Origin: an uncultured Granulosicoccaceae bacterium
Lineage (GTDB): Bacteria; Pseudomonadota; Gammaproteobacteria; Granulosicoccales; Granulosicoccaceae
Reading direction: 5' to 3'
Assembly (NCBI GenBank): GCA_938041955.1
Contig: CALISD010000118.1
Location: 1-64,000, forward strand
DNA: 64,000 nt
Numbering within the stretch: the stretch's first letter is position 1; each line of letters opens with the position of its first letter. Shown piece by piece: positions 23,118 to 61,026 of the stretch. The position numbers were made by a program, and so were the translations under genes. The notes under the pieces were generated by a model. That model was not told the DNA's origin. It searched no databases and saw nothing but the letters and a program-made list of their open reading frames with translations.

Positions 23118-24080
23118 CGTTTTCTGCTTTGGCGATTCAACCGCGGGTTTATCCCCTGCCATTTCCGAATGACTAGTAATTTTCTTGAGTACGATATTGG
23201 TAAACCAGATGGTCCCAATATTCAATGAATTTGACCCTCCACTATTATCGCCAAGGTTAAACGTCACTCGAGCGTTGCTGTCTGTCACTGGCAGATAGAA
23301 GTCTGCCTGAAAACGTACCGGAGTGATGCCTATACTGAAATCAGTGCGTTGCATATGTGGTGTAAAACTGGCTCCGTTTTCGACCACTACTGAACCTACT
23401 GCGTCACCTGTTTTTCCACCTGACTCACGAGTGAACTCCAGTCGATAGGTATGCCCACCTTCCAGATGAATGGGTGCTGTATAGGCTTGAGAATGCCACC
23501 ACTCTGAACCGGCGTCTCGATAAGACAAACGCAGATCTCTGCTTAGGTCAAACGAAGATTCTTCGGCATCCGGGTGAATGTAAGTCGTCCAGTGAGTCGC
23601 TCCGTCACGGAAACTCCCGTTTTTTACCAGGTTGGCCTCAACTACGCAGGACGCGAATCCAGTCCATCCCCAACCGTCCCCATGCGGTAGCGTATCTTCA
23701 CAGTACTGGTAGGCAAGGAATCGTTCATATTCATTTAGATTGTCTGAACTTGTTTGAATCGGGCAAGACGTAACCCCATTCCAGCCCCAGCCATCACCTG
23801 TTGGCGGAGAGTCAACACAAGCGCTTTGTTGTACTGGTATGCGACAAGAGGTAATTCCGTCCCAACCCCATCCATCGTTAAGTGGCGGTGAATCTATGCA
23901 TTCATTAGCTGGAACGACAGGATCAACCAGGCACGATCGAACACTGTCCCATCCCCAGCCATCACCATCGGTATCAGTGCAGAGTCCGACAGTTGCTGCA
24001 TGAGTTAACGGTACTGCAAGATTTATAAAAGCGATTACAGCAACGGATCCTGTAAGCACCTGAGCTTTGTAACTTCGCAT
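23094..24080 (-). CDS. Exported protein: four GWGW mini-domains plus a C-terminal CBM4/9-like domain
   Basis: 328 residues. Residues 1-28 are a signal peptide ending LTHAA. Residues 33-145 hold four Cys-bounded repeats (CTDTDGDGWGWDSVRSC and three variants with CxDSPPxxDGWGW or CEDTLPHGDGWGW). Residues about 148-315 form a jelly-roll carbohydrate-binding-like domain starting NLVKNGSFRDGATHWTTYIH and ending with a TIWFTNIVLKKI strand. No catalytic domain is present, so it is probably a surface or secreted glycan-binding protein. It carries the shared TGTNATGACA-type palindrome 49 bp upstream of the start. Its 3' end overlaps the Cys-rich gene by 24 bp. Confidence 0.85.
   Translation of the reverse strand: MRSYKAQVLTGSVAVIAFINLAVPLTHAATVGLCTDTDGDGWGWDSVRSCLVDPVVPANECIDSPPLNDGWGWDGITSCRIPVQQSACVDSPPTGDGWGWNGVTSCPIQTSSDNLNEYERFLAYQYCEDTLPHGDGWGWTGFASCVVEANLVKNGSFRDGATHWTTYIHPDAEESSFDLSRDLRLSYRDAGSEWWHSQAYTAPIHLEGGHTYRLEFTRESGGKTGDAVGSVVVENGASFTPHMQRTDFSIGITPVRFQADFYLPVTDSNARVTFNLGDNSGGSNSLNIGTIWFTNIVLKKITSHSEMAGDKPAVESPKQKTLRHFSII
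23646..23981 (-). repeat. Four GWGW mini-domain repeats
   Basis: Each copy runs from a Cys, through an Asp-rich or Pro/Gly-rich loop, to DGWGW, three residues, Ser, Cys. Only the first copy keeps the full DxDGDGWGW loop; copies 2-4 have replaced the acidic part by SPPLN, SPPTG or TLPHG. The paired Cys probably form a disulfide. Confidence 0.85.
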
Positions 24081-24128
24081 TGATACACTCTATTTCTGAC
24101 AACTAAACTGACATCAGGAAGATTATTA

Positions 24129-24138
24129 TGTAATGACA
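24129..24138. promoter_or_regulatory. Shared palindromic box, variant TGTAATGACA
   Basis: One mismatch from TGTCATGACA. It lies 49 bp upstream of the CBM/GWGW gene and on the coding strand is followed by TAATAAT, a -10-like sequence. The same box precedes three other GWGW genes. Confidence 0.55.
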
Positions 24139-24512
24139 TAAAAGTCAAATGGTTGCTTTTGAAAGGGGTTAACTTTACTAACATAGCCAGCACCTGATGA
24201 CGCGCATACGGTTGCGTAAAATCAGTGGATCGGGAGTCAGAGTGAGTGGATAGAAAGAGTTTCAATTGACATAACTCGAGTATAAAACCAGCATATATCT
24301 TCAGCCATGAATGAAGCATACTGAAGTAGGCGAGTATTATGGGATATGACACATCTGATGACAGAGAGCTACATTCAGGGGGTATTAATCAGGCGCTGCT
24401 GTCATATTGCATGCAACACACTGGTAAATTGATAGTGGTGAAACTAGCTTATATAAGGTTCTCCCAGGCTGATAAATCTATAAGCACAAGACAAAGTACT
24501 GTTGATAGTATG
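24139..24512. other. Gene-free stretch, promoter side of the CBM/GWGW gene
   Basis: Between the convergently placed MFS stop and the box region. A 66-codon frame at 24339-24539 has no family features and overlaps the MFS 3' end, so it is not called. No repeat or RNA gene is seen. Confidence 0.5.
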
Positions 24513-25778
24513 TTAACGACGCTGCTGTTGTCCGCCTGACTCCTTCACTAAAACACAGCATGCCAGGCTGATGGCCATAATAGCTACAAGAGAACTGAAG
24601 GCAAAACCATAATTCTGTGTTGAGTAAATGCGTGCGCCGTTGACCACTTCACCAGACCATTGACTGTCAAGCAGCATGCCGATTACAGGTTGCATCACGG
24701 CACCGGACCCCACAATACCCATGTTCGTCAGCGCCATGGCAGATGCTGCGTGTGCCGGCTGGTTCCACTCCCGTACCAGTCCGAACAACACCACCATTGA
24801 ACTGCACGATACACCAAGCAGAAATAACAGTAATGCCATTAGCACCATGTTATCAATAGCGGCGTAGAGCGTCACAATCAGTAGTACGTTGGCGATGATT
24901 ACGCCAGTTAACAACACTGGTTTGCGCCTACCGATTCGATCAGATAACCAACCGAGTAAAGGAGAGCCAATCATCCAACCGGCAAAATTCCATGACACAA
25001 TAGCGCCCGCATCAACGGCCGAAAGCGCTTGAGTACCCATGAGCCAGGGCACAGCCCAGAGACCTGAAAAACTCAACATTGATGAGGCAAGCCCGAAGCC
25101 TGCAATCGCGCATAGCATCGACTGACGATTGCACAGCACCGCAATCAGGTTCTGCCAGATGCGACGGGATGAACTGTCATCACGGTTTCGTTCGGCACGG
25201 CCAAAAGGTGGAACCACCAGGACAGCGACTGCGAGCAGCGCTGCTATCACAGCAAGCCCCTGGAACACTTCCCGCCAACCGAACTGCTCTACAAATACAC
25301 GCAGTGGTGCCTGCCCTGCCATAGCACCCAGCATTCCGGTGGCGAGCAGCAAGCCTGTGAGCATGGCAAATCGGTTCGGTGCGAACAGGCGGGATATGAT
25401 GCTTAGTGTACACACAAACGGGAATGCTACGGCCGCACCAATCAGTGCACGAAAAACTGAAGCGGTAGCAAGTGTATCGCTGACCGAAAAACCGTACGAC
25501 GCCATCATGCTTAAAAGCGCTGCGACACACATAAGGTTACGAGGACCAAATCTATCGACCAACAAGCCTACCGGTAACTGCATTATTGCGTAGCTGTAGA
25601 AATAGGTACCAGACAAAATGCCTAGCGCCGCACCACCTACCGCAAATTCAGCCATTAATTCGCTTGTCATAACGCTGGGTGAAACACGCTGCACAAATGC
25701 ATAAAGAAAAAACAGCGTGCCGATAGCATAGGCTGCTATTGATCGCACGCCGGTGGTCGAAATTTGAGTAGTTGGCAT
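24513..25778 (-). CDS. MFS transporter
   Basis: About 421 residues from ATG at 25778; an in-frame TTG at 25793 adds five residues and neither start has a clear ribosome site. Twelve hydrophobic segments are visible. The MFS loop-2 signature appears as GLLVDRFGPRNLM after TM2 and again as GWLSDRIGRRKPV after TM8. The C-terminal half contains a WNQPAHAASAMALTNMG segment. The sequence looks like the nitrate/sugar-phosphate-type MFS group of general anion or drug porters; the substrate cannot be inferred. It stands alone between the CBM gene and the large regulator. Confidence 0.87.
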   Translation of the reverse strand: MPTTQISTTGVRSIAAYAIGTLFFLYAFVQRVSPSVMTSELMAEFAVGGAALGILSGTYFYSYAIMQLPVGLLVDRFGPRNLMCVAALLSMMASYGFSVSDTLATASVFRALIGAAVAFPFVCTLSIISRLFAPNRFAMLTGLLLATGMLGAMAGQAPLRVFVEQFGWREVFQGLAVIAALLAVAVLVVPPFGRAERNRDDSSSRRIWQNLIAVLCNRQSMLCAIAGFGLASSMLSFSGLWAVPWLMGTQALSAVDAGAIVSWNFAGWMIGSPLLGWLSDRIGRRKPVLLTGVIIANVLLIVTLYAAIDNMVLMALLLFLLGVSCSSMVVLFGLVREWNQPAHAASAMALTNMGIVGSGAVMQPVIGMLLDSQWSGEVVNGARIYSTQNYGFAFSSLVAIMAISLACCVLVKESGGQQQRR

Positions 25779-25913
25779 CTGACGAAACTGCAAAGAGGGG
25801 CTTCGATCATACCGGTTTTCTAAACAGCACGTTCACGAAACCAGACAAACCTATTCTTACAGCATTTGCCGCTGAATATTTTTAGATTATTGATTTTCCA
25901 AGTCGGGCATTAC

Positions 25914-28900
25914 TTAGGAATTTAGTGACAGGCCCTCTGTCTGTTGTTTCTGCATGGCCTGTTCCAGCTTTGGTACTGCCGTCAGATGCTGGATGGATTT
26001 TGCAGTTCTAATCAGTTTTTCAATATTCGTTTTGTGATCAGCTGAATCACCACTACGTAGCAACACCTCACCTCTTTTCAGGTAAAAATCTGACCATGGG
26101 CAAGGTTCGTTATTGGCGAAATTCCGAAATTTCTCAATGTAGTCCTTCGTACGATCATACATTCCGTGATTAAGCGTGGTTTCAATCGCCTCCATGTAAA
26201 AGCGATAGTAATTATGCCCCACGCACCCGTTTTCGATTATAGGCTCAGCACGATCAAGATAGCTCTCAGCCTCCCTACGCGTCTTCGATAGTAACGCACA
26301 GGTCCCCAGCACCCATGGGCCGATAAACGCCTGTGCATCCAGTTTTTCAACCTCTGCGAGAGCCTCCTCAATTGAAAGGATAGCAGCATCGGCATTGCCG
26401 GATAGCCATAAACAACGGCTTTTGCATTCTCTTAGAAACGGGACGAAACGCAATGCACCAATTTCGTTTGCGATTTCCATCGCCAGCGCAATATGTGATT
26501 CGGCTTCAATAACACGAAGCGATTCAACAAGAATCCAGGACGCGGTTAATCGGGACACGATCTCTGCGCGTTTGTGCCCCACCATCTGTGCGGTAGTTAT
26601 GGATCGTTCAACATCTGCAAGCCCCTGTTCACTTTCATTGAGGTAAATTCGTACTGTGCCGAGCATAAACATATTTGCAGCGGAAACTGCTTTTAGATCG
26701 TGTTCGTCACACAGTGCTAAACACTGTTTAAAGTATTCATAAGCGGTGACCATTTTTCCGCTTGCATAAGCGGCATCACCGAGACCACCGAGTGAACGGG
26801 CCTCAAGTTCCGGTTCAGAAGCCTTTCGAGCAAAAAGGAGTGCTTTCTCCTGTGATTCTATGCAGTCCCGTGACTGTCCTTTAGGGAACAAAAAATTCCC
26901 TCGAAGGTAATATACACTGGACAATTGTTTTAACAGACTGGAACCGCTGGCAATATCACCAGCTTCATTAAGCGCCTGCATCGCGTCGTCAAACTTATCT
27001 AATGTGTTTAGACAATTAGCTTTACCAATCAGCGCATTCGCTCTTTCCTCTGGCGCGATAGCATGGCGTTGCATCATTTCAAAAGACGACAGAGCTTCCA
27101 TAGTATCTCCAACGCGTAGGTTCACATCAGCCCGTAACTCATGTAAGGCCAATGGCGCTGACCGGTTTCCCGGCAACCGCAACGCAATGTCAATAAAATC
27201 CTTTGCGCGTTCAAAGTGGTAACCGCTAATTAGATACTTTATAGCGGGAATGAGCTTATCGATAGCTTCAGGATGCTGCCCTTTTAATAAGTGCTGGCAT
27301 TGCAAAACGATGTCGTCGGTATACCACTGAGCACATTGATAATGCAGCTTGCGTTGATCCTCCGCAGAGATAGACAGATAGATTCCTTCAACAATTAGCG
27401 CATGATTAAACGAATAATTGTCATCATCACCGTTGATAATATTGTTAGCCACCAGAGCAGCGGGATCGTAGGCAGGCGAATTCAGTAATTTTCGTAATAA
27501 ACGCAAAGTAAACCGTTGCCCTATTACAGACGCTGTTCGAACAGCCAGTTGATCTTCTTTTGGCATATCGTCAATGCGTGAAACAATCAGACTTTGCAAA
27601 GAGTAAGGCAGGCCACCGAGTTCACTGCCACGCCGGTCCTTCAACAACTGTTCCAGAAATAGCGGGTTGCCCTGTGCCTTTAAAATGCACTTCTCCCGAT
27701 AGTCCGCATCGATACCGGAAATATGCTCTGCGAAAATTTGCGCATCGAGCCTGGAAAGTGGTCCCAGGCTAATATTGGTGACCGATGCTCCACTTGATTC
27801 ACTCGTCAGAACAACTGAACCGGATGTCTCGCCGGGTCTTGCGGTGATAAGCAATACTACCGATTCACCAAGCAGGTTGTTCATTAAATAATCAATGTAT
27901 GCACGCTCGGTGTTCTGCGACCAGTGGTAGTCTTCGATAACAATCAATAAGGGAGAGCATCGCGCTTTTATAGCCAGGATTCTTGTGATCAACTGGCACT
28001 GAGATTTAAAAAGTTGCTCTTGTGACATTGCCCCGAACAGAGACTCCCATCGGTTGCTAATTCGCCAATTCAAAAGTGAATGCAGCAGTGGCAAGTGTGT
28101 TGTTTCCTGGAGAATCACAGTCTTATTGCGAGAGTTGATTTCATCCAGCGAGAGGTTTGAGTCCGAGTCGTCAATACCCAACAATGACTTTAACAATTTG
28201 GGAATTGTTTGCTTTTTCTGTTCTACCTGAAAATCTGTCATATTGGTTGTGTGGCAGGAAAATCCGTCTAATGAAGCGACTCGAACAAATTCTTCTGTGA
28301 GACGACTTTTGCCAACACCCGCGCTACCCACAAGGTGTACCACCTGCAACGCCTCGTATTCTTTTGCGGATTCAAGAACCGCGTTAAACAATGTGATTTC
28401 AACACGGCGGCCAATAATAGGAGAATAGTCCCGGGTGTCTGAATCATCGTTTGCATTAATAACCCAAAAGGACCCGCTGTTTAATTCAGTGCTAATGGGG
28501 CTACAGTGATCATCAACAGCAAAAAGCAACTCGTCAGACATGGTAAGAATGCCCGGTGTCGCGGACAGCATTAATGCATCGATACTTGATTCTATGGTGC
28601 TAACATCAATCTCAATATCAGTCTCTGACCGGGTTAGTTTCCCTACGCAGAGCCCTAATTTGACGGCCTCTCGGGTACCCCAAAGCGAGAAAAATATTTG
28701 CTGGCAACGCTGAGCAAAACTTATAGCGCGCTTGGCCTCGTTGCCGTGTGTATGACTAGCACCAAAGGAGTAGTACACGCGCTGTTTATCACAGCAAATA
28801 AATTCTGCGTTGTACTGGGGAGCAATATGGCCAAGTATTGACTCAAGTCCGGCAGCTTCAACCACAGTGGAAGTTGTTAGGTCTGACTGCTCGCAACAGA

Positions 28901-29228: not shown

Positions 29229-29444
29229 GACTTTAGTAAGAACGGATAAATGTTCAGCAGCTCCTGACGCTCAGAATGCTATCACAAACATCTGGCTTAG
29301 AAAAAACGGGTTTACGCTCATTCGATCTTTCCTTTTGTACAATCACGCACTATTCTCTTGCTAGGGAATGTCACATTCAGGCCGGATGAAACAGGATTTA
29401 ATCTACGGCCTCAATCTATTTCGGTATAAATGGAGCTAAACGAA

Positions 29445-31579: not shown

Positions 31580-31580
31580 C

Positions 31581-40424: not shown

Positions 40425-40443
40425 AGTGTTTTTACAGTACGCG

Positions 40444-41616: not shown

Positions 41617-41844
41617 AATGTATTCCGTCATTAAAGCGTATCGCACCAGGCAGTTTTACTATATCGATCGCCGTGACTGAAAAATCATCTGGTACACCAA
41701 ACCCGAAAAACCTGCCGTTGCCAGGTTATACCAACAATAATTCAACTGGATGCGAAGTGACATCCAAATAATAGAATATAGATGTGAATGAAGTTCGGCA
41801 CCTGTTAAACCGAAGGATGGGGTGTAACAGAAAAACTAAAGTCT

Positions 41845-41895
41845 GCAAGACGCCGAACCAGTCCACCCCCAGCCGTCCCCATCGGTATCAATGCA
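41845..41895 (-). repeat. GWGW mini-domain, copy in second Lcl_C module
   Basis: CIDTDGDGWGWTGSASC ends the protein two residues before the stop. All consensus positions are present. Confidence 0.85.
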
Positions 41896-42453
41896 AACTG
41901 GATTGAGGCCAATGGGTATCCCAATGTCACCATCATGCACCGGCCACGCGAAGTAACTTTTGCGCCAATCAACGTCAGTGACATAGGTCGAACTATTACT
42001 GTTGTAGGTACGTGATTGAGCGCCTAATATCAGCGAGTTGCTCTCAACAAAATAGTCCCCGTCGGTAAGTTCGAAACGGTTGCCAATTTCTGATGTCAAT
42101 CGAACATAGTGAGCACTAAGCACCTCAAGCTCTGAATCATATTTTCTACTGGAAAATGTAGTCTCATTAGTATCAATCGCTTTCGGCAAACGCCATTGGT
42201 TGTGGCCAAGGTACTCAGCCTGGTTTATGCGGCCTATCCAGTCGCGGGCGAAAGACCTTTGATCAAATGATCCGTCAGGGTTTAATCCATCGGTCAATCC
42301 CAGTGGCGCTGATAGCGCCGTCTTACTGTCTGCCAACCACGTCATCTCAAGTTGCGGGTGATAATAAGCCTCGGCAGTGGTTAGGTCTCCGTCCAGATCC
42401 CTTGGTTCCATAGGACGTATTACTTCAACATATGAAGAGTGGTTTTCAACCAC

Positions 42454-42504
42454 GCAGGTGGACGTGCCATTCCAGCCATAACCGTCTCCGTCAAAGTCGC
42501 TACA
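42454..42504 (-). repeat. GWGW mini-domain, copy in first Lcl_C module
   Basis: CSDFDGDGYGWNGTSTC, with Tyr replacing the first Trp. It separates the two Lcl_C modules. Confidence 0.85.
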
Positions 42505-43178
42505 GACCTGTTGTGCGTTTGCATTAACCGGCGTTCCTACGTCACCATCCAGCACCGGCCAAACAGTAAAACGTGTCAGACCATCGGAGAGGTTCGTCCC
42601 CAGTGCACGGGCAGTACCCCATCTGACATAAGCGCGCCCACCTTCCGGGTGGTAGCTCTCTGTGACGAATCTATAGTTAAAAACCTCATAGATAGGTAGG
42701 TACATGGAGTATCTCTGACCTAGAATTTCATCAAGCTCATGTGAATCACCAAGCCAACCATATAGGTTATTCGGAACAAAGCCGGTTCTGGGTAATCACC
42801 AATCGCTGCGGCCCATATAGTTTTCATTGTTCATCGAAGCAATATATTCGTCAGCAGTCGGCCATTCCATAAAACCAAACCGATCAATTCCAGGCTGCGT
42901 TTCGTTGCAAAATATTCCGTTGGTACAAGTGGTATCAACTGTGCGGGGAATGCCGAACCTTTCTGACAGAGGTAGATTCGGATGAGCAATAGCGGTGATA
43001 TCAAACTCGGTGTCGTAGTACGCTTCGACGGTAGATGGATCCTGATCCAGATCACGAGGAAGTACGTCTGCTACTGCTGCAGTTGCCAGAAAAGGTAATG
43101 AAATACTGGATTTAACAAAACCTGAAACGATATTTTTCAACCTGTTCATAAAGTACTCCATCAACTAATAATTTTATG

Positions 43179-45760: not shown

Positions 45761-47875
45761 TTACTGCACTCTGCAAGAGCTGTTATCCTCCCATCCCCAG
45801 CCATCGCCATCTGTGTCAGCAGCAGTGCTTGAACAGATGTTCTGCAGGGGACTGCTTTGTACGATGCAGGTGGTGCCGTTTTCCCAACCGAAGCCATCAC
45901 CATCTGAATCAAACGCAGCACTGGAGCATACAGGTCTTCCCTGTGGGGTAACAGGCGCTTGTTGCATAACGCATGAAGTGTTGTTCTCCCAGCCCCAGCC
46001 GTCACCGTCAGAATCAAATGCTGCGCTACTGCAATAGATAGTGGTTTCCGTGTTTGTTATGGTTTGAACCAGGCATGACTGGCCATTCTCCCAACCCCAT
46101 CCGTCGCCGTCACTGTCAAAACTCGCATCACTACAAAGAGCATCAGACTCAGCCGACGTAGCGGACCGTTCATAGGCACCGATATCACAAGCACCCCCCT
46201 GTGGCCGTACGATGCCTCGCTGATCGAGCGTGACAACACCATCGCTACAGTTGCCATTATCGACGGCATCACTGGACACGAGCAGCGCGTGTGTAAGACC
46301 GATGCCCCCATTGGCGTTTAAAACGTCCAGTCCTGCAAAGCCGAATGCTAAATCCCCTGTTTGTACCGGGCTACAGCTGGCATCTGTATGAAGGTTATAC
46401 CCTTCTGATGTGATCGGTACGAGCCCACCACATTCTGAGCTTTCACCATTGCCGACAATAATGCTATTCGAAAGAGTTAGTTGCCCTGCGTTACCTACCT
46501 GCCGGCCATATAAATTGTTGTAGATGGTACTGTTTTTCACTCGCATCAATCCTTGATTGGCTAGCGCCGCACCCCCATAGTCTCCATCACCGTAAGGTCC
46601 ACTCGAATTACCGCTGATGGTTGTGTTAATAATGTCTGCAAGGCCTTCGTTGAACACCATACTGTTTTGCATGTCGTTACGAGTGATTGAAGTGTTTTGC
46701 AACTCAAGAACACCGGAACTGTCAATTAACGGCTGATCTCCACGATTCCTATCAATGTGGGAGTTTTCTATGATCAGTGTACCGTTGTTATCAACAAAAC
46801 TTGCACCAAGGTTATCGAATACCTCACATTCATTAAGCGATAGTCGGGCGCCCTGATTGTTACTCACAGCGTACACGTTATTAGTGCCGATCCCGGTAAT
46901 CGTGCAACCTTCAAATTCAATTACGCCATAGTTGCTTACAGCGGGCCCTGCAGAAGGCACATGACTTCCAATGGTGACGTCTTTGCCGGTAACGCGACCA
47001 TAGTTTGACAGTGCTGACTCATAATTCAGGCTGTTATTACTAATGCTGCTACGTTCAAGATGTAATCGTCCCAGATTGAAGATCACACCAGTGTTGCCTC
47101 TGTTTCTAAAAATTTTCGAATCAAATAGCCTGGTGTCACCCAGGTTATATATCGCACTGCCTGTGGTGCCGTTGTCAGTACTCTCCGTGATCGTTACATT
47201 GTTAAGTATCAGCAGCACACCAGGCTGAACACGAAACAATCGGTTGGTGTTGGCACCGCTGAGAGTCAGGTTGTCTGCAGCATTGATAATGGTATCGCGT
47301 GTGATGGCGAGTTCAGGCACTGTAATTTTTCCGTTGCAGCTAAAGTTGATCTGTCTGCCACCTGCCAGCGCCGCGGCCAGCGTCCCGATCTCCTTGACGG
47401 AACCGAATGAGTCACACTCGTTAACAGAGATTGTATCTACTCTGTTGTCAGTTGCATCAACTCGCGGCATCACCTCTTGTGGCAAATTAACGGGTTCACT
47501 ATTTTGTATATTTAAACGAGTAGGCACCGCAGCCCCACCATGAAAGTGATCCAGATAAATACGGCCCTGATCCGGATACGGTGTGTCAGTGGTATATAGG
47601 TAAGGATTAATATCCTGAAAAAGCACACGATAGTTGCCGTATGGCAGGTCTCTGAAGGTATAGCGACCATAAACATCAGATATCGCCTTTACCACGGTGT
47701 TGTCGCTGGCATTCAGCAAACTCACCGTGATATTGGAAAGTGTTCTTCCGGAGGTGTTTTTTATGACTCCGCTTGCCATACCATCGTCCCGGGCGTAAGC
47801 CGGGACTGGTTTCAGGCTGAACAGACCCACTACCAGCAGGCACACCAGCGATAAATTCCCCGAACGACCTTTCAT
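45761..47875 (-). CDS. Exported right-handed beta-helix protein with four C-terminal GWGW mini-domains
   Basis: 704 residues from ATG at 47875, preceded by GGTGGAAA; a longer frame to 47926 is unsupported. After a signal peptide (ending VPAYA) residues about 30-115 form a carboxypeptidase-regulatory/SpaA-like beta sandwich (GVIKNTSGRTLSNITVSLL, YTFRDLPYGNYRVLFQD). Residues about 195-565 are a parallel beta-helix with repeating NxGxxxIxxSxIxxN turns, of the polymorphic-outer-membrane or adhesin type, ending in the choice-of-anchor-like GIGLTHALLVSSDAVDNG and RGIVRPQGGACDIGAYE. The last 125 residues hold four GWGW copies. The box TGTCATGACA is 33 bp upstream. A surface adhesin or glycan-binding protein is likely. 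Confidence 0.85.
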   Translation of the reverse strand: MKGRSGNLSLVCLLVVGLFSLKPVPAYARDDGMASGVIKNTSGRTLSNITVSLLNASDNTVVKAISDVYGRYTFRDLPYGNYRVLFQDINPYLYTTDTPYPDQGRIYLDHFHGGAAVPTRLNIQNSEPVNLPQEVMPRVDATDNRVDTISVNECDSFGSVKEIGTLAAALAGGRQINFSCNGKITVPELAITRDTIINAADNLTLSGANTNRLFRVQPGVLLILNNVTITESTDNGTTGSAIYNLGDTRLFDSKIFRNRGNTGVIFNLGRLHLERSSISNNSLNYESALSNYGRVTGKDVTIGSHVPSAGPAVSNYGVIEFEGCTITGIGTNNVYAVSNNQGARLSLNECEVFDNLGASFVDNNGTLIIENSHIDRNRGDQPLIDSSGVLELQNTSITRNDMQNSMVFNEGLADIINTTISGNSSGPYGDGDYGGAALANQGLMRVKNSTIYNNLYGRQVGNAGQLTLSNSIIVGNGESSECGGLVPITSEGYNLHTDASCSPVQTGDLAFGFAGLDVLNANGGIGLTHALLVSSDAVDNGNCSDGVVTLDQRGIVRPQGGACDIGAYERSATSAESDALCSDASFDSDGDGWGWENGQSCLVQTITNTETTIYCSSAAFDSDGDGWGWENNTSCVMQQAPVTPQGRPVCSSAAFDSDGDGFGWENGTTCIVQSSPLQNICSSTAADTDGDGWGWEDNSSCRVQ
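45773..46135 (-). repeat. Four GWGW mini-domain repeats at the C-terminus
   Basis: CSDASFDSDGDGWGWENGQS-C and three more, with CSSAAFDSDGDGxGWENxTxC spacing of about 33-36 residues. These copies have the longest Cys-to-Asp spacer and the GWGWEN form closest to CBM10. Confidence 0.85.
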
Positions 47876-47907
47876 GATGTTTCCACCGGCTGTATGAGAC
47901 TTTATAT

Positions 47908-47917
47908 TGTCATGACA
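47908..47917. promoter_or_regulatory. Shared palindromic box TGTCATGACA
   Basis: Perfect palindrome 33 bp upstream of the beta-helix gene start; the coding strand continues ATATAAA, a -10-like sequence. Confidence 0.6.
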
Positions 47918-48069
47918 TTTGTGCACCCGTCAATATATACCCTCATAAGTGTGCACCATGAGTGAAAAAATAGAAATCTTATGCGGGTATCAAGGGTAAA
48001 CCAGAACCGAAAGGCCGGGTTTGTGAGAGGTTCCCAAGATAATCAGCTGATCTCGCCTGTCTCTATGTT

Positions 48070-48168: not shown

Positions 48169-49316
48169 TCACCGGGGTATTCTGCAAGATTCAATACCAT
48201 TCCAACCCCAGTAGTCTCCATCAGAATCTTCACAGGTACCCGTCTGTGTATGGCCAATACGACAGGTGTTTGCACTATCCCATCCCCAGCCGTCACCATC
48301 TGAATCTGTACAGTAAGCCAGCCCGATCAATGCAGGCAATGTGTTGATAAAGGTCCAACCGCGCTCTCTGGTCACTGCATGATTATTGCCGAGGCCTATG
48401 TGTTTGCCAATATCAAGGTGAGCCCCAGTGTAGCCTCGTGCGATCCAGATCCCCATAGGGGGTTTCTCAAAGTGATAGAGTTCGTTGTAACTTTGTACCA
48501 CCGCACGGTTTGAAGAAATTGCAACAGAGCCGCTTGCTATGCCGTATTCCTGGGTGAGGGTCCACATGCCTGTACCGTAGGCAGTGTAGAAAAATAGCTT
48601 TTCACCGGCCGCCAATAGCAGCGTGTCATTGAATACAGCCAGATCAGCATCGTATCTGAACAATGTGGATGGTGATATTTGTTGCCCTTCCTGCCACTCT
48701 CCCTGAGCGTGCGAGAAAATCTGTACAACCTATCGGGTACAGCAGTATCGCTTATTGCGTGTGTCAGCACTACCAGCGTGTTTTCGTATAAGTCTACAGC
48801 TTCGATAAACCTGGCTGCATCACTTGCAATATCAATTTCCTGCTCCAGAAACAGCATAGTGTCTTCTATGCGAATTATGAACAGCACTCCACCACGCACG
48901 TAAACAAGCTTATCCTCAAACAAACTAGTGTCGTGTATTCCCCCTGCCCTAACAGGGCCACGGGCGCATATTTTATCCAGACCCCTTCTTCTTTTTTAAA
49001 CAGGTGTAAATATTTTTCTGCAGGTCCATGACAGGCAACAATCGCCGTATCGTTGGATAACTGTATTTTTGACCAACAGTCCCCGACATTAAATGTCTGA
49101 ATGGCATTCCATGTGCCGTCCACGGATTGCTCAATAAATGAAACTTCTTGAGGGTTACTTTCAGAGTCGGCCAGTATTGCCCGACATATCATAGGCATAC
49201 GAATCTAAAACAGTTCTCTCGACCGGGATGTTCATTGATATATCGGCAAGTGCAGACTGTTGAGTAAAAAACAAAGGAACAATCGCGACAGCATGTTTTA
49301 GCGTTTGCCGGTGCAT
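48169..49316 (-). pseudogene. Exported beta-propeller-like protein with two GWGW copies, broken by frameshifts
   Basis: ATG at 49316 begins a signal peptide (MHRQTLKHAVAIVPLFFTQQ, then SALADIS). The reading frame then changes three times: from the start frame to another near 49180-49200, back near 48880-48920, and to the third near 48650-48700. Pieces read as one protein: VEVSFIEQSVDGTWN-like, DIASDAARFIEAVDLYENTL, and VAISSNRAVVQSYNELYHFE, a pattern of repeated strand-turn units resembling FG-GAP or integrin-alpha propellers. The C-terminus has CTDSDGDGWGWDSANTC and CEDSDGDYWGWNGIESC. The TGTCATGACT box lies 29 bp upstream. Three shifts favour a real pseudogene, but sequencing error is possible. 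Confidence 0.75.
48184..48312 (-). repeat. Two GWGW mini-domain repeats
   Basis: CTDSDGDGWGWDSANTC and CEDSDGDYWGWNGIESC, in one open frame at the protein end; the second has Tyr in place of Gly in the loop. Confidence 0.85.
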
Positions 49317-52866: not shown

Positions 52867-52958
52867 TACACTTCTTCTGGTTGTAGATTACTATTTATCG
52901 CTGATTCAACATTGTTGATAGCTTCAGCAAGCACCGTAAACTTCATCTTTCTGCTATG

Positions 52959-54401: not shown

Positions 54402-55736
54402 TTAGCCATCGCTTCTCTGATTTTCTCGAGCTGCCTGTGCCGCTTTTAACGAACGATTCAGAATAAAGTTGAAGAGAGAATCCAAACCAATGCCCGTCCG
54501 GATTTCAAAAAGCTCATAGTGAAATCGTCGAGCTGAAAGTCCGTGCTCACGCAACTCCTCCCACAACGTTTTCCGGAATGCTGAAGGGCCACAGTACAAT
54601 ACATGCTTTCCTTTCAGAGAGCCTGCCTGATCAATAATTTCTGAAGGTGTAATCCGGCCATCAACTGTTGTCTCACGTAACACCAGTTGAAAGTTTTGGT
54701 GTTGAGCTGCAATGGCTTCCAACTCTTCAAGGTGCGCCGCACGTCGTCGGTCCTTTACTGAATAATATAGTGTTATCGGCCCTTCCCCGGCTTTAAGCGT
54801 TCCCGCCATCGCCGCGAACGGTGTTATCCCAATACCGGCCGCCACCCAAATCTGCTCTCCACGTGCTTTCGAAAAATCACCAAACGGGCCTTCCACGCGC
54901 GCATCAACTCCCACTTTGAGCCTGGACATCAAACGAATGGTGTAGTCCCCCAGCGGACCGATACTCATTCTTAGCCGCCCGTCGTCATCAGGCGCTGCAC
55001 TCAAAGTAAAGGGATGAGGTTCACTCAGGCCAAGATCTGCGAAACTCACAAAACAGAACTGCCCTGCCCGATGTCGTATAGGGCGCCCCTGTGGCACCAG
55101 CGAAACCGCCAAAGCGTCACCGTGCTGCTCAAGGTGCTCAACTCGATACCGACGTGCCGGTCTGAACCGGCGTGGTGCTGACGTGTAGGCATAGGCGATT
55201 AATCCCAACATACACACTGACGCCATGTAGAGCCCCAGCGCATCCGTGTTGGAAAACGGTTTTTCAATAAAGAGATAGTGGAAAGCCGACAAGATAAAGA
55301 ACACACCGATGAATCGATGCGTCCATTTCCAGAGATGATAAGGAACAAACGTAGCAACAGTAATCAAAACCAGAATCAACAAGCCGTTGAGCCCGATCTC
55401 ACCTGCGGTTTCGGCAATTTCGGCAAGCACTGTGCGCCCGTCCGGCCCTTCAATGTCAGCGTCAACTGTATCGTGTAGAAAAGTTGCTGCAAGCGCCCAA
55501 AGACCCAACCACTTATGCAGCCGATAAGATTGATCAAGAGGTCCGAAAAGGCGCTCAACACCCCACCAACGTGTCGCAATAAGCTGTGAGATAGCCATTG
55601 CAATAATGGCCGTCATCCCGAGATACTGACTAAAGAGTGCAACAGCATTGCGCCCGGTTATTAAGCCTGGTAGCCACATCAAAGGCAGTAACATTGCTAC
55701 CCCGACAATAATAAAACCCGATAGCCTAGGCGCCAT
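54402..55736 (-). CDS. Ferric-reductase-like transmembrane protein with FAD/NAD(P) module
   Basis: 444 residues. Residues about 1-205 have five to six membrane helices with His residues (RLHKWLGLW, FLHDTVDAD, WKWTHRFIGVFF, FHYLF) that can bind two hemes. Residues about 215-310 form a FAD-binding barrel (HPFTLSAAP, LSIGP-like) and the rest an NAD(P) domain (WVAAGIGITPFAAM and YCGPSAFRKTLWEEL). It moves electrons from NAD(P)H across the membrane, probably to Fe(III) or another acceptor, or to oxygen as in NOX-like enzymes. It stands alone. Confidence 0.87.
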   Translation of the reverse strand: MAPRLSGFIIVGVAMLLPLMWLPGLITGRNAVALFSQYLGMTAIIAMAISQLIATRWWGVERLFGPLDQSYRLHKWLGLWALAATFLHDTVDADIEGPDGRTVLAEIAETAGEIGLNGLLILVLITVATFVPYHLWKWTHRFIGVFFILSAFHYLFIEKPFSNTDALGLYMASVCMLGLIAYAYTSAPRRFRPARRYRVEHLEQHGDALAVSLVPQGRPIRHRAGQFCFVSFADLGLSEPHPFTLSAAPDDDGRLRMSIGPLGDYTIRLMSRLKVGVDARVEGPFGDFSKARGEQIWVAAGIGITPFAAMAGTLKAGEGPITLYYSVKDRRRAAHLEELEAIAAQHQNFQLVLRETTVDGRITPSEIIDQAGSLKGKHVLYCGPSAFRKTLWEELREHGLSARRFHYELFEIRTGIGLDSLFNFILNRSLKAAQAARENQRSDG

Positions 55737-56195
55737 TGGTACACTCTATCGTTAACAGTAGACGAGATTATGTCTAAGTTAGGGAGCTTGCACAAGTGTG
55801 TATGCAATCGCAAAAAACACTCTTTGACTCAATAACCTCTGAGTGGATCTAACAGGACAGGCAAGGAAAAAGCAGACGGAATTCCAGCCAATTTTTCTTA
55901 CACAGGAATATTTTCAGATCAACAATCATATGCAGCTAATCAAGCTGGTTTTTAACTGTAACTGTGCATGTTTATTTCTCTTCCGGAAAATCCACAACCA
56001 CACATGTAGTCGGAGTTTCAAGATATACCACTAAAATTCACTGCCTCCTTTTTCCTCCGCTGAATGAATCAAAGAGCACTTTCATAGGATATTGTTAATG
56101 CGGCAGCCATTTTTCGGTGTATGTAACGGCTGTCGGCGCAGACCAGATGGGTTGTGATGTAGCCAATCGCTAAGCGAACTAGCTAACAGAACACA
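55737..56195. other. Gene-free stretch
   Basis: About 460 bp upstream of the ferric-reductase-like gene and downstream of the hydrolase gene. A 63-codon frame at 55843-56034 has no supporting feature. No RNA gene, repeat or hairpin is visible. Confidence 0.5.
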
Positions 56196-57059
56196 TCAGG
56201 TATTCGACTGTTTCTCAAGCCAGTTAGTGACCACAGGCCATAACGCTTCCTGCTGGCGCGCCTTAAAGAAACCGAAGTGACCAATGCGGTCCGTATTGAC
56301 ATCAGCCGGCTCGATGGTACGGAATTCTACCTCAGTGCCAGTGTAAGCCTCATTCATAAAACGACCGCCTGAAACCAAAAGCAATTCATCGTCTGTAAAA
56401 AATAAGTTGAGCACTGGGCACTGTATGGCAGCGTAGGCGGGTCTCGCCCCTGCTGCAGCATCTAATAAATACTCCGGGTTTAGACACCAGCGCCGCCATT
56501 CAAACATAGCGTGCTGCGGGACATCACCAACCACGCCAATTTTTGAACCCGGAAAATAACCAAATACAGGGCATAACAAAGGTGTTAGCACATGCCATAG
56601 CAATGGCATCACAGGTTGTAATCGGCTTTGAATATGCCGTGTTGCGCCACTGCCAATAGCAATATTAATAATTCCACTGATACTTTTTATTGAAGGTAAA
56701 AACGGTGTTATTAAGCCACCCAGGCTGTGACCCAAAACATAGAGTGGTAAGTCCGACATATCCTTACCGGCTTGCATTACAACCGCTTCGTAGTCAGCAT
56801 TGATCCATGTTGAAATAGTCGCCTTACAAGCGCGCATTGCCCCTTGTTTTGATTCACCAATTCCCTGGTAGTCAAAAGTCCACACTCTATACCCTTGCGT
56901 TGCCAGGTATTCGGCAAAGGCAGCATAAAAAAGTTGCTGTACTGCCATAGCAGGTGCGATAACAACTCCTGCCCTTACGGGGCAAGACGGCTCATAGCAG
57001 GTGGCGGTTAGTTTATGACCATCTGATGATCGTATACTGAGATTGCAAGGCTTGATAAC
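56196..57059 (-). CDS. Alpha/beta-hydrolase-family protein with no canonical start codon
   Basis: The fold is clear: nucleophile elbow GHSLGG near the middle, DYQGIGES before it, and a final His in RIGHFGFFKARQQ. A conventional start is the ATG at 56948, but homology extends upstream into IKPCNLSIRSSDGHKLTATC and VRAGVVIAPAMAVQQLFYA, beginning 37 codons earlier and ending at an in-frame TAG at 57060-57062. That segment has no ATG, GTG or TTG. AGAAGGAAG precedes it and the first codons are GTT, ATC, AAG. Either an unusual start such as ATC is used, a short version is made from 56948, or the start is lost. Confidence 0.75.
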   Translation of the reverse strand, partial: VIKPCNLSIRSSDGHKLTATCYEPSCPVRAGVVIAPAMAVQQLFYAAFAEYLATQGYRVWTFDYQGIGESKQGAMRACKATISTWINADYEAVVMQAGKDMSDLPLYVLGHSLGGLITPFLPSIKSISGIINIAIGSGATRHIQSRLQPVMPLLWHVLTPLLCPVFGYFPGSKIGVVGDVPQHAMFEWRRWCLNPEYLLDAAAGARPAYAAIQCPVLNLFFTDDELLLVSGGRFMNEAYTGTEVEFRTIEPADVNTDRIGHFGFFKARQQEALWPVVTNWLEKQSNT

Positions 57060-57334
57060 CTACTTCCTTCTAAAGGTTCTATGTTGGCGATTCCTGTAAA
57101 GACTTTGCATCTCTACTCCCTCGGTATAACAAAAAAGGCACTTTCTTGTAAAAATACAGTTTTCAGTGCTTTCTTCTTCGGGCCCATTTATGAGTATTAA
57201 AGGTGAGAGACCACTTTCTCTTACAATGATTTAACTGGATTCGCAATGCCTGTGACGGCGAGCCCTCCAGTGCATCAGATCAAATTCTTTTTTCAGTGAC
57301 TGCCCATGCTTATTTCTTTCCATTTTTGTTCTTT

Positions 57335-57769
57335 TTAACTTAACCACTTCATCTCTGCCGAGACCAATCCATCAGGTAATTTGGGTGCAGGTAATCCAGC
57401 ATAGCTTAGTAAGGGTATTAATCTGGCCAAGTCCATAACCTCACCTAGCTCAAGTAATCTATCCGGTGCACACCAACGAGCGTCCATACACTCTTTAACT
57501 GAAATTGACGGAGTGCGATCCACACCCTTTGCTAAAAGGCACAACAAGTAGACTGAGTGTCCTGCCATAGCAAGCTGTTCAGAAACTTCCACCACCAGCC
57601 CGGCCTCTTCTTTAGTCTCTCGAATGACAGCCTCTTCTAAAGTCTCATTGGCTTCTATACTACCGCCTGGTAAACCCCACTGCCCCGGCCTTGACGTTGT
57701 CTGTGAACGCTGCAAGAGCAATACTTCAGATTGATCAGTTACTAAAGCAAAAACAGAACGTATTTTCAT
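57335..57769 (-). CDS. NUDIX hydrolase
   Basis: 144 residues. The full Nudix box GSIEANETLEEAVIRETKEE followed by AGL is intact near residues 35-58. The protein hydrolyses a nucleoside diphosphate derivative; MutT-like, ADP-ribose or GDP-mannose-like substrates are all possible. It is a single gene with a weak ribosome site before 57769. The upstream gap to the hydrolase gene (57060-57334) has nothing notable. Confidence 0.88.
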   Translation of the reverse strand: MKIRSVFALVTDQSEVLLLQRSQTTSRPGQWGLPGGSIEANETLEEAVIRETKEEAGLVVEVSEQLAMAGHSVYLLCLLAKGVDRTPSISVKECMDARWCAPDRLLELGEVMDLARLIPLLSYAGLPAPKLPDGLVSAEMKWLS

Positions 57770-57808
57770 ACCCTAATTATCTTTTTTACCTAATACTTTG
57801 TCTGGGAG

Positions 57809-58276
57809 CTACGATACTTGCCCAAGATTGATGATCTCTGTTGAATCAAAGGCATACCAGCGAGACCGGAACAACCAGTTTATCCGGCCAAACATTTCGG
57901 AGTTTACGAAATGGGGGCTGACGAATTCACGCACTATATCACCGTCCGGAGTCACCTCGAAAAGACAGCCTTTATTCCCCTCACAAATAAGCGTATTCCC
58001 AGATGGCAGGCGTTTTACACCACCCATGTGCGGCGAATAGAACGAAGTCATATCGTCCTTCGCAGCATAGTGCCAGACTATCTCTTGGGTATCAGGGTTG
58101 ATTTCCCAGACCTGGCTGTGACTTAGATCGGCCGCATATAATCCATTCGCAAAAACAAGTACGTTTCCATTATCCAGCATCTGCGCGTCGTGCTGCCCAC
58201 CCAATTCGTCATTCTGATACTTCCACTTCACCTTGTTCGTCACGAAATTAGTTTCGAATCGAACCATCAGGCACAA
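57809..58276 (-). pseudogene. Fragment of an arylsulfotransferase-like (ASST) beta-propeller protein
   Basis: 155 codons read GGQHDAQMLDNGNVLVFANG, SQVWEINPDTQEIVWHYAAK, and GGVKRLPSGNTLICEGNKG, typical of the C-terminal blades of ASST-type propellers. The family is usually 400-500 residues, so most of the protein is missing. The frame starts at a TTG at 58276 with no ribosome site, and the preceding codons fit another frame (IRIVPDGSIR), so a frameshift joins here. Residues such as the catalytic His region of ASST cannot be seen. Treat as a decayed fragment. Confidence 0.6.
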
Positions 58277-58416
58277 TACGAATCAACAAGTAGAGCAGCG
58301 TCAAGGCTGTAATTCTACATTAGCTTCGGGGTTGGCTTTCCAGGCAATCTTTGAGGCCAGGCATGATGAGCCTTCCCCCGAGCTAATCCAATTCCCTGCA
58401 CTGCGCAAAAGGAATT

Positions 58417-59265
58417 TTAGTTTGCAGTGACCTGTCCACTTGACTCGAGAAAGCTTGCCATCCCTTCTATATTTAACGGCAGCCAGCTTTCGTAGTTCGA
58501 CCAATCTTTATAGTCGCTCATTGTGATATCTTTTTTCAGATCATCTATAGACTTGCCTTCTTTAAGGCCGGCAAGAACTGATGTCTTCAGTTGCTCCATA
58601 TAGATTCGCGCATCGGTGGCGTCGGCTTTGACACCAACATTCCCGTGAGCCGGTGCGAAGATTTCAAAATCCAGTGATTCAATCTTGCGTACCTGATCTA
58701 TCCAGTTGTCAATATTGGCGCCACCCATGTTTCTCCATGGCAGACGCTTGGGAGCAGCCGCATCGGTGATAAAGGCCACGTTTGCAGGCCTGACGACCAC
58801 AGCGATAAGGTCCTCGCCGTGGCCAGGGCCAAGCCAGGTAAGCTCGAATGTCTTGTCGCCCTGAACGAATTCATGAGTATCATCAAAACGCAGTGTTGGT
58901 TTCACGCCATCAATCAGGTTGGGTGCATTGGCTTGTGTAATAACCGTGGCATTCTCGGCCAGTACCGCGCCACCGGAGGCGTGATCGCCATGGCTATGAC
59001 TGTAGATAAGGTGGGTAATAGGCTTGTCTGTCAATTTGGCCACTTCAGTTTTTATCCACCCTGCTGCATCAGCGTTGATCGGATCGGTGACTACTGCGCC
59101 TTCAGTTGTTATCACGACCATGGAATAGTGAAAATTGTTTTGCAGACGATAAACATCAGGGGCGATTTCAGTGACAGAGCGCGTTACATCAGCCTGCGCA
59201 AGTGTCTGTGGAGCTTGTAACAACAATAACGTCACGACAGCGACGGATGAGAGTAGCGTTTTCAT
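58417..59265 (-). CDS. Exported metallo-beta-lactamase-fold hydrolase
   Basis: 282 residues. Residues 1-24 are a signal peptide ending TLAQA. The metal motif HSHGDH lies near residue 92, with further ligands in GPGHGEDL, FITDAAAP and FAPAHGNV. This is a periplasmic or secreted MBL-fold enzyme, in the group of SoxH-like and N-acyl-lactonase-like hydrolases rather than clear resistance lactamases. The start follows CACTCAAATG-like spacing with a weak ribosome site. It is a single gene. Confidence 0.88.
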   Translation of the reverse strand: MKTLLSSVAVVTLLLLQAPQTLAQADVTRSVTEIAPDVYRLQNNFHYSMVVITTEGAVVTDPINADAAGWIKTEVAKLTDKPITHLIYSHSHGDHASGGAVLAENATVITQANAPNLIDGVKPTLRFDDTHEFVQGDKTFELTWLGPGHGEDLIAVVVRPANVAFITDAAAPKRLPWRNMGGANIDNWIDQVRKIESLDFEIFAPAHGNVGVKADATDARIYMEQLKTSVLAGLKEGKSIDDLKKDITMSDYKDWSNYESWLPLNIEGMASFLESSGQVTAN

Positions 59266-59521
59266 TTGAGTGATTCCTGTGTTGACGGGTTACTAGATGT
59301 GGCACTCCTACAGTTGTCGGACTGGAGCTCGGCCAGTTTAGTTCCGCTAACGAAGTAGCTAACTACTGATCTGAGCGCATTCCAGATGCCTCACCGTGAG
59401 GTTCTTGAGTGCTATGTCCATGCAGGATAATGCCGCTACCAAAATGATTCATACCCGGTGTTGCTGAACTGCATTCATTCAGAGTAGTGTGCGTTACTCT
59501 AACTGCATTTCGTTTGGTCCA

Positions 59522-60757
59522 ATGCGTACCCTGATTTCCTTTGCCGCCCTCTTCCTTTCAGTTGCATTGCTACAGTTAAGCAGCGGTGCAATTTCACCAC
59601 TTGATGCCCTTGGTGGTCTAAAAAGTGGATTTTCCACAACCGAAGTAGGATTGTTGGGCTCATCTCATTTTCTCGGTTTTTTTGTCGGATGCTGGCTAGC
59701 ACCGCGAATGATTGGCGTGGTGGGCCATTCTCGTACGTTTGCAGCGTTTGCCGCCTGTGGGGCGATTGGGGCAGTCGCCCATCCACTACTCGTTGAACCG
59801 ATGGTGTGGGCTGGACTTCGCGTGTTGACCGGATTTTGTGTGGCCGGGTGCTATACCGTAATTGAAGCGTGGTTGCATGCCAGGGTGACTAACAGCAATC
59901 GTGGCCGTGTTCTGGGTGTTTATCGGTCGGTTGATCTTGGTGCGTCATTGATTGCGCAGCTATTGATCAGTGTGCTTGAGCCGGCACACTATGTCGCTTA
60001 TAACCTGCTCACTATTCTTTGTTGTGCTTCGTTGTTTCCACTGGTTATCACCCGGGTGCAACAGCCGCAAATTTCAGAAGCGCCACGCCTAAGCCCGCTA
60101 AAAACGTTTCGAGTGTCACCTCTGGGTGCCTGTGGCGTTGCCGTGGCCGGTGTCACAGCGGCCTCTTTTCGCATGGTTGGTGCTGTCTATGGCCAACAGA
60201 TTGGGCTTGTTGCAACCGAGATTGCGTATTTTCTTGCAGCCTTCGTACTGGGAGGTGCGTTATCACAAATTCCAGTCGGCTGGCTTGCTGATCGATATGA
60301 CAGGCGCTGGGTATTGATTGTTGTGTCAGGCTTATCGGTATTAGCCTGTGCCGGTACAGTGATCTATGGTAATGAATCTCGTAGTGCAGTATATATTTCC
60401 GCCTTGCTTTTCGGGATGGTTACGTTCCCTGTATTTTCTCTCTCTGCTGCGCACGCCAATGACTTTTCCGAACCTGGGAAGGCGGTTGAGCTAAGTGCTT
60501 CTCTGATGTTTATCTATGGTGTGGGAGCAATTGCGAGTCCGCTCCTCTCATCATACCTAATGCAAATTGGCGGGCCCGCTATGTTGTTTGTCATGATCGC
60601 GTGCGCGCACCTGGGTCTGGTTATCTTCGGTTTTTACCGCATGCTGGCCGGGCCTCCGGCGGAGTCTCGGCGTCCGTACCGCTACATGCCCCGCACCAGT
60701 TTTATTCTAGGTCGACTATTGCGACGTGGACAACGTGACAAAAACAAAGGCAGCTAG
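59522..60757 (+). CDS. MFS transporter (YcaD-like sugar/drug type)
   Basis: 411 residues from ATG at 59522; an in-frame GTG at 59489 would add 11 residues but the hydrophobic N-terminus starts after the ATG. Twelve hydrophobic segments are visible. Signature loops are GCWLAPRMIGVVGHSRTFAA and VGWLADRYDRRWVLIVVSG. It resembles YcaD-like multidrug permeases. No transport substrate can be inferred. It stands alone and is convergent with a GWGW-like remnant. Confidence 0.87.
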   Translation: MRTLISFAALFLSVALLQLSSGAISPLDALGGLKSGFSTTEVGLLGSSHFLGFFVGCWLAPRMIGVVGHSRTFAAFAACGAIGAVAHPLLVEPMVWAGLRVLTGFCVAGCYTVIEAWLHARVTNSNRGRVLGVYRSVDLGASLIAQLLISVLEPAHYVAYNLLTILCCASLFPLVITRVQQPQISEAPRLSPLKTFRVSPLGACGVAVAGVTAASFRMVGAVYGQQIGLVATEIAYFLAAFVLGGALSQIPVGWLADRYDRRWVLIVVSGLSVLACAGTVIYGNESRSAVYISALLFGMVTFPVFSLSAAHANDFSEPGKAVELSASLMFIYGVGAIASPLLSSYLMQIGGPAMLFVMIACAHLGLVIFGFYRMLAGPPAESRRPYRYMPRTSFILGRLLRRGQRDKNKGS

Positions 60758-60820
60758 TGATGAAGGGAATTCTAAACCCTGATAACTGGTCAGGAACTGT
60801 ACAGACTTTACCCGATACAG

Positions 60821-61026
60821 CTAAAACCATTTGCTTGAAGGATCACAAGTCACTGTGCCGCTCACCCATAGCCATCACCATCTGAATCTATACAGCGTGT
60901 TACTTGTTCTTGAGCAGGGATAAACTCGGTGCCGCACGAGTCAATGTTGAAATTGTTAATTATGATGCGACCCACAGCCCAAACGAACGAAAACGGGGCA
61001 CGCAAATGAAAACTGAGATAGCTTTC
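60821..61026 (-). pseudogene. Vestige of a CBM-GWGW exported protein
   Basis: On the minus strand an open frame from 61026 reads SYLSFHLRAPFSFVWAVGRI and then NNFNIDSC, similar to the last strands of a CBM4/9-like domain, followed by CIDSDGDGYG and a stop TGA (60864-60862). A one-base shift restores WSGTVTCDP, giving CIDSDGDGYGWSGTVTC, so a deletion of one G in GGGTG(G)AGC is likely. Nothing of the signal peptide or other modules remains. The vestige shows that the family has been expanding and dying in this genome. Confidence 0.6.
60845..60894 (-). repeat. GWGW mini-domain vestige
   Basis: CIDSDGDGYG then frameshift then SGTVTC. It is the 13th copy in the window and the only one with a break inside the motif. 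Confidence 0.65.

Follow-up and report, generated by a model that had tools for sequence, protein, structure and literature searches.

What are the short, cysteine-bounded segments that recur in exported proteins of an uncultured Granulosicoccaceae bacterium, and what might they do for the proteins that carry them? The segments (termed modules herein) were noticed in positions 1 to 64,000 of contig CALISD010000118.1 (assembly GCA_938041955.1; this whole 64-kb stretch is termed the window herein), and an earlier note on this DNA described them as 13 copies, in five loci, of a motif that joins an acidic DxDGDG loop to a GWGW segment like that of carbohydrate-binding module family 10 (CBM10). We consider it probable that the modules are reduced members of the CBM10 family that act as glycan-binding tethers for exported proteins. 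Their abundance is unusual: each genome of one genus has dozens to more than 100 of them, spread over many exported proteins that are otherwise unrelated.

A six-frame search combined with the translations identified 12 complete Cys-bounded modules and 1 cut copy in the window, all on the minus strand, with four complete modules in gene 23094, two in gene 41836, four in gene 45761, and two in gene 48169 (Table 1). The places and the count given by the earlier note were recovered (4 + 2 + 4 + 2 and a fragment), with the correction that the copy at 60821 is a remnant. A chance origin was rejected, as the six frames of the window contain 8 instances of DxDGDG[WYF]GW and 11 of G[WYF]GW-x(3-5)-[ST]C, compared to means of 0.0 (maximum, 0) and 0.01 (maximum, 1), respectively, in 300 residue shuffles. 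A single uniform motif was rejected as well, since the Cys-Cys spacings differ between copies. The formula originally proposed, C-x(2-6)-DxDGDG, fits only 4 copies, all in gene 45761; four further DxDGDG copies have the spacing C-x(1)-D, one reads DxDGDYWGW, and three in gene 23094 have the spacing C-x-D-x(5)-DG.

The modules are 17 to 21 residues long from the first to the last cysteine and fall into three types, which are given here by their majority residues: type A, C-x5-D-x-D-G-D-G-[WYF]-G-W-E-N-x-x-[ST]-C (window gene 45761); type B, C-[IV]-D-x-D-G-D-G-W-G-W-[DN]-G-x-x-[ST]-C (genes 23094, 41836, and 48169); and type B′, C-x-D-[TS]-x-P-x-G-D-G-W-G-W-[DN]-G-x-x-S-C (gene 23094). The fetched genome regions contain 62 type A, 44 type B, and 29 type B′ copies with exact spacing, and a looser classing of 179 copies gave 79 A, 51 B, 30 B′, 18 unclassed, and 1 other. 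Among the exact-spacing copies (those fitting a regular expression with fixed Cys and with the first aromatic limited to W, Y, F, or I), the DxDGDG aspartates are almost invariant in types A and B. Copies 2 to 4 of gene 23094 had been described as having lost the acidic loop. The loop is changed in them, but they belong to the recurrent subtype B′, which keeps the first Asp in 96% and the residues of GDG in 82, 96, and 93% of its exact-spacing copies, so that the loop is altered and not simply lost. In a profile alignment made without the regular-expression condition, W, Y, or F occupies the first aromatic position in 174 of 178 copies (113, 36, and 25, respectively) and the second in 177 of 177 (160 W, 13 Y, and 4 F), and such conservation at both positions is what would be expected for a stacking face. 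At two loci (L141:2757-3959 and L170:72-3113), successive B′ copies are near-alike, suggesting recent tandem amplification.

The kinship with CBM10 was borne out and is stronger than had been claimed. Gene 45761 scores 69.8 bits against PF02013 (CBM_10), for which the curated Pfam cutoff is 23, and is therefore an ordinary CBM10 by score, an outcome that the earlier note itself had named as counting against its idea of a new pattern. All 46 type A rows matched PF02013 at an expectation value (E) of ≤1 (best, 4.4e-11) and no other family, the cutoff being displayed for the first row alone (26 bits versus 23). By sequence, and by Pfam's own cutoff, type A is CBM10. In the bacterium's own genome, PF02013 gave 80 matches at E of ≤10, 35 of them above the cutoff alone and 9 more with their neighbors, whereas 0 of 14 control genomes had a match above the cutoff. 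The start of the CBM_10 model, with the first Cys and the first aromatic, stays unmatched, and the matches in gene 45761 begin at position 5 or 11 of 36. The closest solved relative of the type A profile is 1e8r, the CBM10 of a Cellvibrio xylanase (E, 2.6e-4), over GWGWE..SC; here, GWGWE aligns to residues 22 to 26 and covers both Trp residues (W22 and W24) that make up the planar binding face. In 10 hand-picked fetched proteins, type A lies beside glycoside hydrolase family 5 (GH5) in 6 (Cellulosimicrobium, three Streptomyces, Catenovulum, and Vibrio) and beside GH26 in 2 (Gilvimarinus and Cellvibrio); the other 2 are proteins of metagenome-assembled genomes (MAGs) that carry neither.

The statement that no named family fits fails for type A, which is PF02013, and holds for types B and B′, for which no Pfam or NCBIfam model scored above its cutoff in the searches made; the shortest form of the module is not recognized by the libraries tried. 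Gene 23094 reached 15.6 bits against CBM_10 (cutoff, 23), genes 41836 and 48169 had no CBM_10 match, and no NCBIfam model matched the modules in 20 proteins tried. The weak Pfam matches of type B rows, for which the search displays E values and not cutoffs, were to DUF5874 (6 of 46 rows; best E, 0.0074), Cleaved_Adhesin (5 rows; best E, 0.079), and, with a single row apiece, four other families. As for the candidates that the earlier note had listed for checking, an ordinary bacterial dockerin and TSP3 were rejected, as they are absent from the Pfam matches of four module proteins at E of ≤10 and from the A and B rows at E of ≤1, a negative to be read with the HMMER filters in mind, which discard most matches above about 0.1.

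Several lines connect types B and B′ to type A. A profile comparison of type A with type B (hhalign) gave a probability of 98 and an E of 5.1e-14 over 21 columns; because this alignment is short and loop-rich, convergence may also account for it. Both types occur within the same proteins, in 8 frames of the own genome and in 5 fetched frames from elsewhere. Type A precedes in 7 of the 8 (the exception, L153:2757 with the order B-A-A, is perhaps misclassified, as a single copy survives the stricter cut at that locus) and leads in all 5 of the others, one of which is A-B-A. Types B and B′ are therefore best read as relatives of type A and as its putative further-shortened derivatives.

The modules are not confined to the window. 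A search of the own genome with the 12 window copies returned at least 151 matches, with the best 150 of 303 candidates scored, and the fetched regions and the window together hold at least 170 copies in 58 frames at an independent E value of 0.01; the totals of 178 in the profile alignment and 179 at a looser cut are lower bounds likewise. At one contig end (L174, contig C140), the module is an exact match of the final copy in L170 on contig C102, perhaps one repeat split by assembly. By a crude rule, signal-peptide-like starts were found in 47 of 52 module frames and in 59 of 141 other long frames from the same loci (signal and position counts cover 52 of the 58 frames; those dropped are L174, two L175 fragments, and the window frames 41839, 48172, and 60865). 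The sets range from one to eight copies, with single copies in 8 of the 52 frames, and many linkers between copies are short. It had been proposed that the modules always lie at junctions or C termini. A C-terminal position (set ending ≤20 residues from the C terminus) does apply to 21 of the 52 frames, but 24 sets begin ≤25 residues from the predicted mature N terminus; 4 reach both ends and 11 reach neither.

Of the 53 module frames that the own genome has outside the window, 50 were scanned with Pfam (all except L174, L175:3018, and L185). The carbohydrate-related partners above the Pfam cutoffs were GH12 in four (a fifth lies below the cutoff), SASA acetylesterase in five, polysaccharide lyase family 14 (PL14) in two, and GH18. 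Also above the cutoffs were GDSL lipase, M35, M12B with CBM9 (2), gamma-glutamyltranspeptidase, Kelch with GH115_C, VWA, Spondin_N, HbpS-like, FG-GAP, PD40, DUF2330, Big_9, DUF11, and Y_Y_Y; the remaining module frames have no Pfam-known partner. This list rejects the idea that the modules are attached only to carbohydrate-active enzymes. Two loci resemble small polysaccharide-use clusters: at L144, neighboring module genes combine GH12 and SASA acetylesterase, and at L162, GH12 neighbors Ig-like and unassigned module proteins.

The expansion is lineage-specific, comprising the genus and a neighboring genus. With the type B profile at E of ≤1e-4, matches were found in all 14 genomes of the genus, the own genome among them (at least 25 to at least 139 matches each, and more than 100 in at least 3 of the 14), in the single genome of the second genus (at least 47 matches), and in at least 2 of 33 other genomes of the family (3 or 4 matches), all of these counts being lower bounds. 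PF02013 at E of ≤1e-3 gave the same picture (14 of 14, 1 of 1, at least 2 of 33, and 0 of 14 controls). When 369 genomes were drawn evenly from the class, neither profile matched at E of ≤1e-6 in any but the genome to which the window belongs, with the best 22 or fewer candidates (one profile) and 21 or fewer (the other) scored per genome; since carriers in the class are known elsewhere (Cellvibrio and Vibrio), this result shows rarity and not absence. Among the 80 named stretches listed with the exact string DxDGDGWGW, 39 are from Granulosicoccaceae MAGs and 11 from Streptomyces, and the rest are from Chromatiales and Acidimicrobiales MAGs and scattered others; this list suggests that the genus with the expansion is Granulosicoccaceae related. 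Among plasmids, the single match was to a cellulase-family protein from Eleftheria terrae. Five loci on contigs labeled as Acidimicrobiales MAGs (L069, L097, L103, L108, and L110; GC content, 0.55 to 0.62; two of the contigs are of ∼480 kb) carry type A or B, which suggests either transfer between phyla or mis-binning, and one MAG, CALKYB (L038, L078, L089, L101, and L105; GC content, 0.41 to 0.42), carries type A or B in several proteins.

One type A and one type B module of the window were modeled with AlphaFold2. The models show two short strands across GWGW...SC, and the module blocks have predicted local distance difference test (pLDDT) scores of 87 to 89 and 91 to 95. We propose that, in each module, a probable single disulfide and the acidic turn (DxDGDG, possibly calcium binding) would hold a small β-hairpin that presents two aromatics (G-[WYF]-G-W), which correspond to W22 and W24 in canonical CBM10, and that this aromatic pair would stack on a sugar. 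Sets of one to eight copies would supply avidity for a glycan, and exported enzymes and surface proteins of many kinds would thereby be held at a polysaccharide surface, be it the host or algal wall or the bacterium's own matrix. Types B and B′ would have arisen by further shortening and expanded in this and a neighboring genus. The putative disulfide is consistent with the one Cys pair per module and with the exported location, and the DxDGDG loop is perhaps a calcium-binding site. Glycan binding by the copies of this genome is suggested by analogy with published work on a similar CBM10 subgroup.

Several observations weigh against this proposal. Of the 46 type B rows, just 3 have a CBM_10 match at E of ≤1 (best, 0.056), and the type B profile scores 1e8r at an E of only 0.38. 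Overall confidence in the models is modest (mean pLDDT, 76 and 78; predicted template modeling score, 0.47 and 0.42), and one of five type B models averaged a pLDDT of 51. A fold search with the type A model gave nothing significant (best E, 2.6) and did not list 1e8r, and the type B model matched no solved fold. Numerous partners are not carbohydrate related (M35, M12B, gamma-glutamyltranspeptidase, VWA, HbpS, and Spondin_N). With regard to calcium, the passages of PMC8952944 cited here describe a Streptomyces lividans mannanase that is stabilized by calcium, with its CBM10 reported to be without effect.

The PF02013 modules of anaerobic fungi act as dockerins, and Pfam describes the family as “Cellulose or protein binding domain.” Accordingly, the modules might attach to a protein on the cell surface (or to the glycan of that protein) and so bring together exported proteins of diverse kinds. 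The lineage-restricted expansion, the tandem copies, and the unrelated partners, proteases included, resemble the distribution of dockerins, and two of the three best type A fold matches were the Piromyces docking domains 1e8p and 2j4m. These matches are weak and not significant (E, 2.6 and 5.4), however, and characterized CBM10s of the similar subgroup bind polysaccharide, according to the passages cited (PMC8121702). We regard a dockerin-like role as unlikely, while keeping it as a rival because of the unrelated partners and the dual description of PF02013.

Another reading starts from gene 45761, in which a choice-of-anchor Q domain immediately precedes the four C-terminal type A copies. 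As the family name implies, a surface sorting signal usually occupies that C-terminal position in choice-of-anchor proteins, and C-terminal module sets could replace such signals and retain proteins on the producing cell. In a post hoc comparison of the 34 proteins with an assigned partner, which counts the broken gene 41836 and some partners below the cutoff (one GH12, two Lcl_C, DUF4185, and one VWA), the modules end at the C terminus in 0 of 13 GH12, SASA, PL14, and GH18 proteins versus 11 of 21 others (Fisher P = 0.0018); in the same comparison, type A dominates in 10 of 13 and 9 of 21, respectively, which is not significant (Fisher P = 0.079). Retention on the producing cell is nevertheless improbable as a general role. 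Sets at the N terminus are about as frequent as those at the C terminus (24 and 21 of 52), and four module proteins have a lipobox-like motif by a rule-based count (L142, L143, L172:2117, and L180), so that the module is probably not their sole cell anchor and no further one would be needed. The other three choice-of-anchor Q proteins above the cutoff in the genome run beyond the fetched 3-kb stretches, so that their C termini lie outside these. Least probable of all is a role as disulfide-closed acidic beads that space or stabilize domains, with the tryptophans as core residues, as the near-invariant aspartates of types A and B and the many short linkers might suggest, because 8 of 52 frames have a single copy, free ends are a frequent place for the sets, and a first aromatic that can be W, Y, or F is more easily reconciled with a face than with such a small core.

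If the glycan-tether reading is right, a niche domain for binding cellulose or mannan has been cut down to 17 residues and one disulfide and multiplied on enzymes and nonenzymes alike. It would be a very small portable binding tag that shows how little of CBM10 may suffice, and many poorly annotated secreted proteins would gain a testable shared destination. A bolder version, in which types B and B′ form a distinct, unnamed mini-module family split from CBM10 and serve as a general-purpose tether in one Granulosicoccaceae-related lineage, as a noncellulosomal counterpart of dockerins, is conceivable but doubtful; if true, any exported protein with a few copies would reach one common surface, glycan or receptor.

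Within the window, three of the five module genes look broken, leaving only genes 23094 and 45761 apparently intact (Table 1). The frame of gene 41836 extends upstream past an in-frame TGA, and its relative at L168 is open and aligns across the break in one frame. The open frame of gene 48169 offers TTG as the sole start and lacks a signal-peptide-like segment; over 48 residues, the C-terminal end shares 69% identity with that of an intact paralog (L181, an open 527-residue frame). The third is the remnant at 60821. Part of the window's module set seems to be decaying, unless the breaks are assembly errors.

TABLE 1 Modules and module-bearing genes in the window
Feature	Position	Strand	Basis or remarks
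Exported protein, gene 23094	23094..24080	-	Signal-peptide-like start, B-B′-B′-B′, then CBM_4_9 (35.9 bits; cutoff, 25.9)
Type B′ module, copy 4 of gene 23094	23646..23702	-	Motif search, spacing class
Type B′ module, copy 3 of gene 23094	23763..23819	-	Motif search, spacing class
Type B′ module, copy 2 of gene 23094	23844..23900	-	Motif search, spacing class
Type B module, copy 1 of gene 23094	23931..23981	-	Motif search, spacing class
Lcl_C-like/module repeat gene 41836	41836..43164	-	In-frame TGA at 42796-42798; Lcl_C below cutoff
Type B module, copy 2 of gene 41836, C-terminal, modeled	41845..41895	-	Motif search
Type B module, copy 1 of gene 41836	42454..42504	-	Motif search
Exported protein, gene 45761	45761..47926	-	Signal-peptide-like start, CarboxypepD_reg, beta-helix, choice_anch_Q, 4 C-terminal type A modules
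Type A module, copy 4 of gene 45761	45773..45835	-	CBM_10, 22.5 bits; 27.4 with neighbors
Type A module, copy 3 of gene 45761, modeled	45866..45928	-	CBM_10, 25.1-26 bits; cutoff, 23
Type A module, copy 2 of gene 45761	45971..46033	-	CBM_10, 29 bits; above cutoff
Type A module, copy 1 of gene 45761	46073..46135	-	CBM_10, 30.7 bits; above cutoff
Choice-of-anchor Q domain (NF041518) of gene 45761	46166..46330	-	66-70 bits; cutoff, 25
Type B module, copy 2 of gene 48169 (DGDYWGW)	48184..48234	-	Translation, profile search
Type B module, copy 1 of gene 48169	48262..48312	-	Motif search
Type B remnant	60865..60894	-	CIDSDGDGYG, then stop; without second Cys and second Trp

How do the modules compare with known systems? 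The literature searches returned no paper with the motif letters, none pairing CBM10 with GWGWE, and none pairing Granulosicoccaceae with a carbohydrate-binding module or Granulosicoccus with CBM10. The fungal dockerins 1e8p and 2j4m, which we take to belong to PF02013 and so to the same family as type A, come from another kingdom and have other partners. EF-hand-type and Excalibur calcium loops share the DxDxDG spacing but differ in the Cys and aromatic positions; Excalibur presumably has Glu at loop position 10, as type A does. One protein of the own genome touches Excalibur at 17.8 bits (cutoff, 22), and one type B row touches EF-hand_5 at an E of 0.3, below the cutoff. Granulosicoccus has been found on algae (PMC10233909 and PMC9238374), in passages that are silent on this module, and the AB1 bryozoan paper held one passage, on an unrelated matter.

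The canonical CBM10 of Cellvibrio xylanase A (1e8r) shares GWGWE-xx-SC with type A, including W22 and W24, which form the cellulose-binding face of canonical CBM10 according to the passages cited (PMC8121702). Type A differs from it in the acidic insert and in the unmatched model positions 1-4 to 1-10 (first Cys and aromatic), and type B is more distant (E, 0.38). Nearer to type A is a CBM10 subgroup with one disulfide missing, no first Tyr, and an insert of five to six residues; as the same passages report, it binds soluble galactomannan with a dissociation constant of ∼0.3 to 0.4 g/l and Avicel weakly or not at all (PMC8121702). This insert probably corresponds to DxDGD, judging from its described length and position and from the GH5 relatives rather than from residue letters, and the word calcium has 0 occurrences in the main text of that paper. 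Like the subgroup members SdGH5CBM10-2 and BaGH5CBM10 as described there, type A has one Cys pair, tandem copies, and PF02013 scores above the cutoff, with residues inserted between the first Cys and GWGWE and the first aromatic lost (PMC8121702). Unlike them, type A in this genome lies mostly apart from GH5 and GH26 mannanases and is present in very high copy number.

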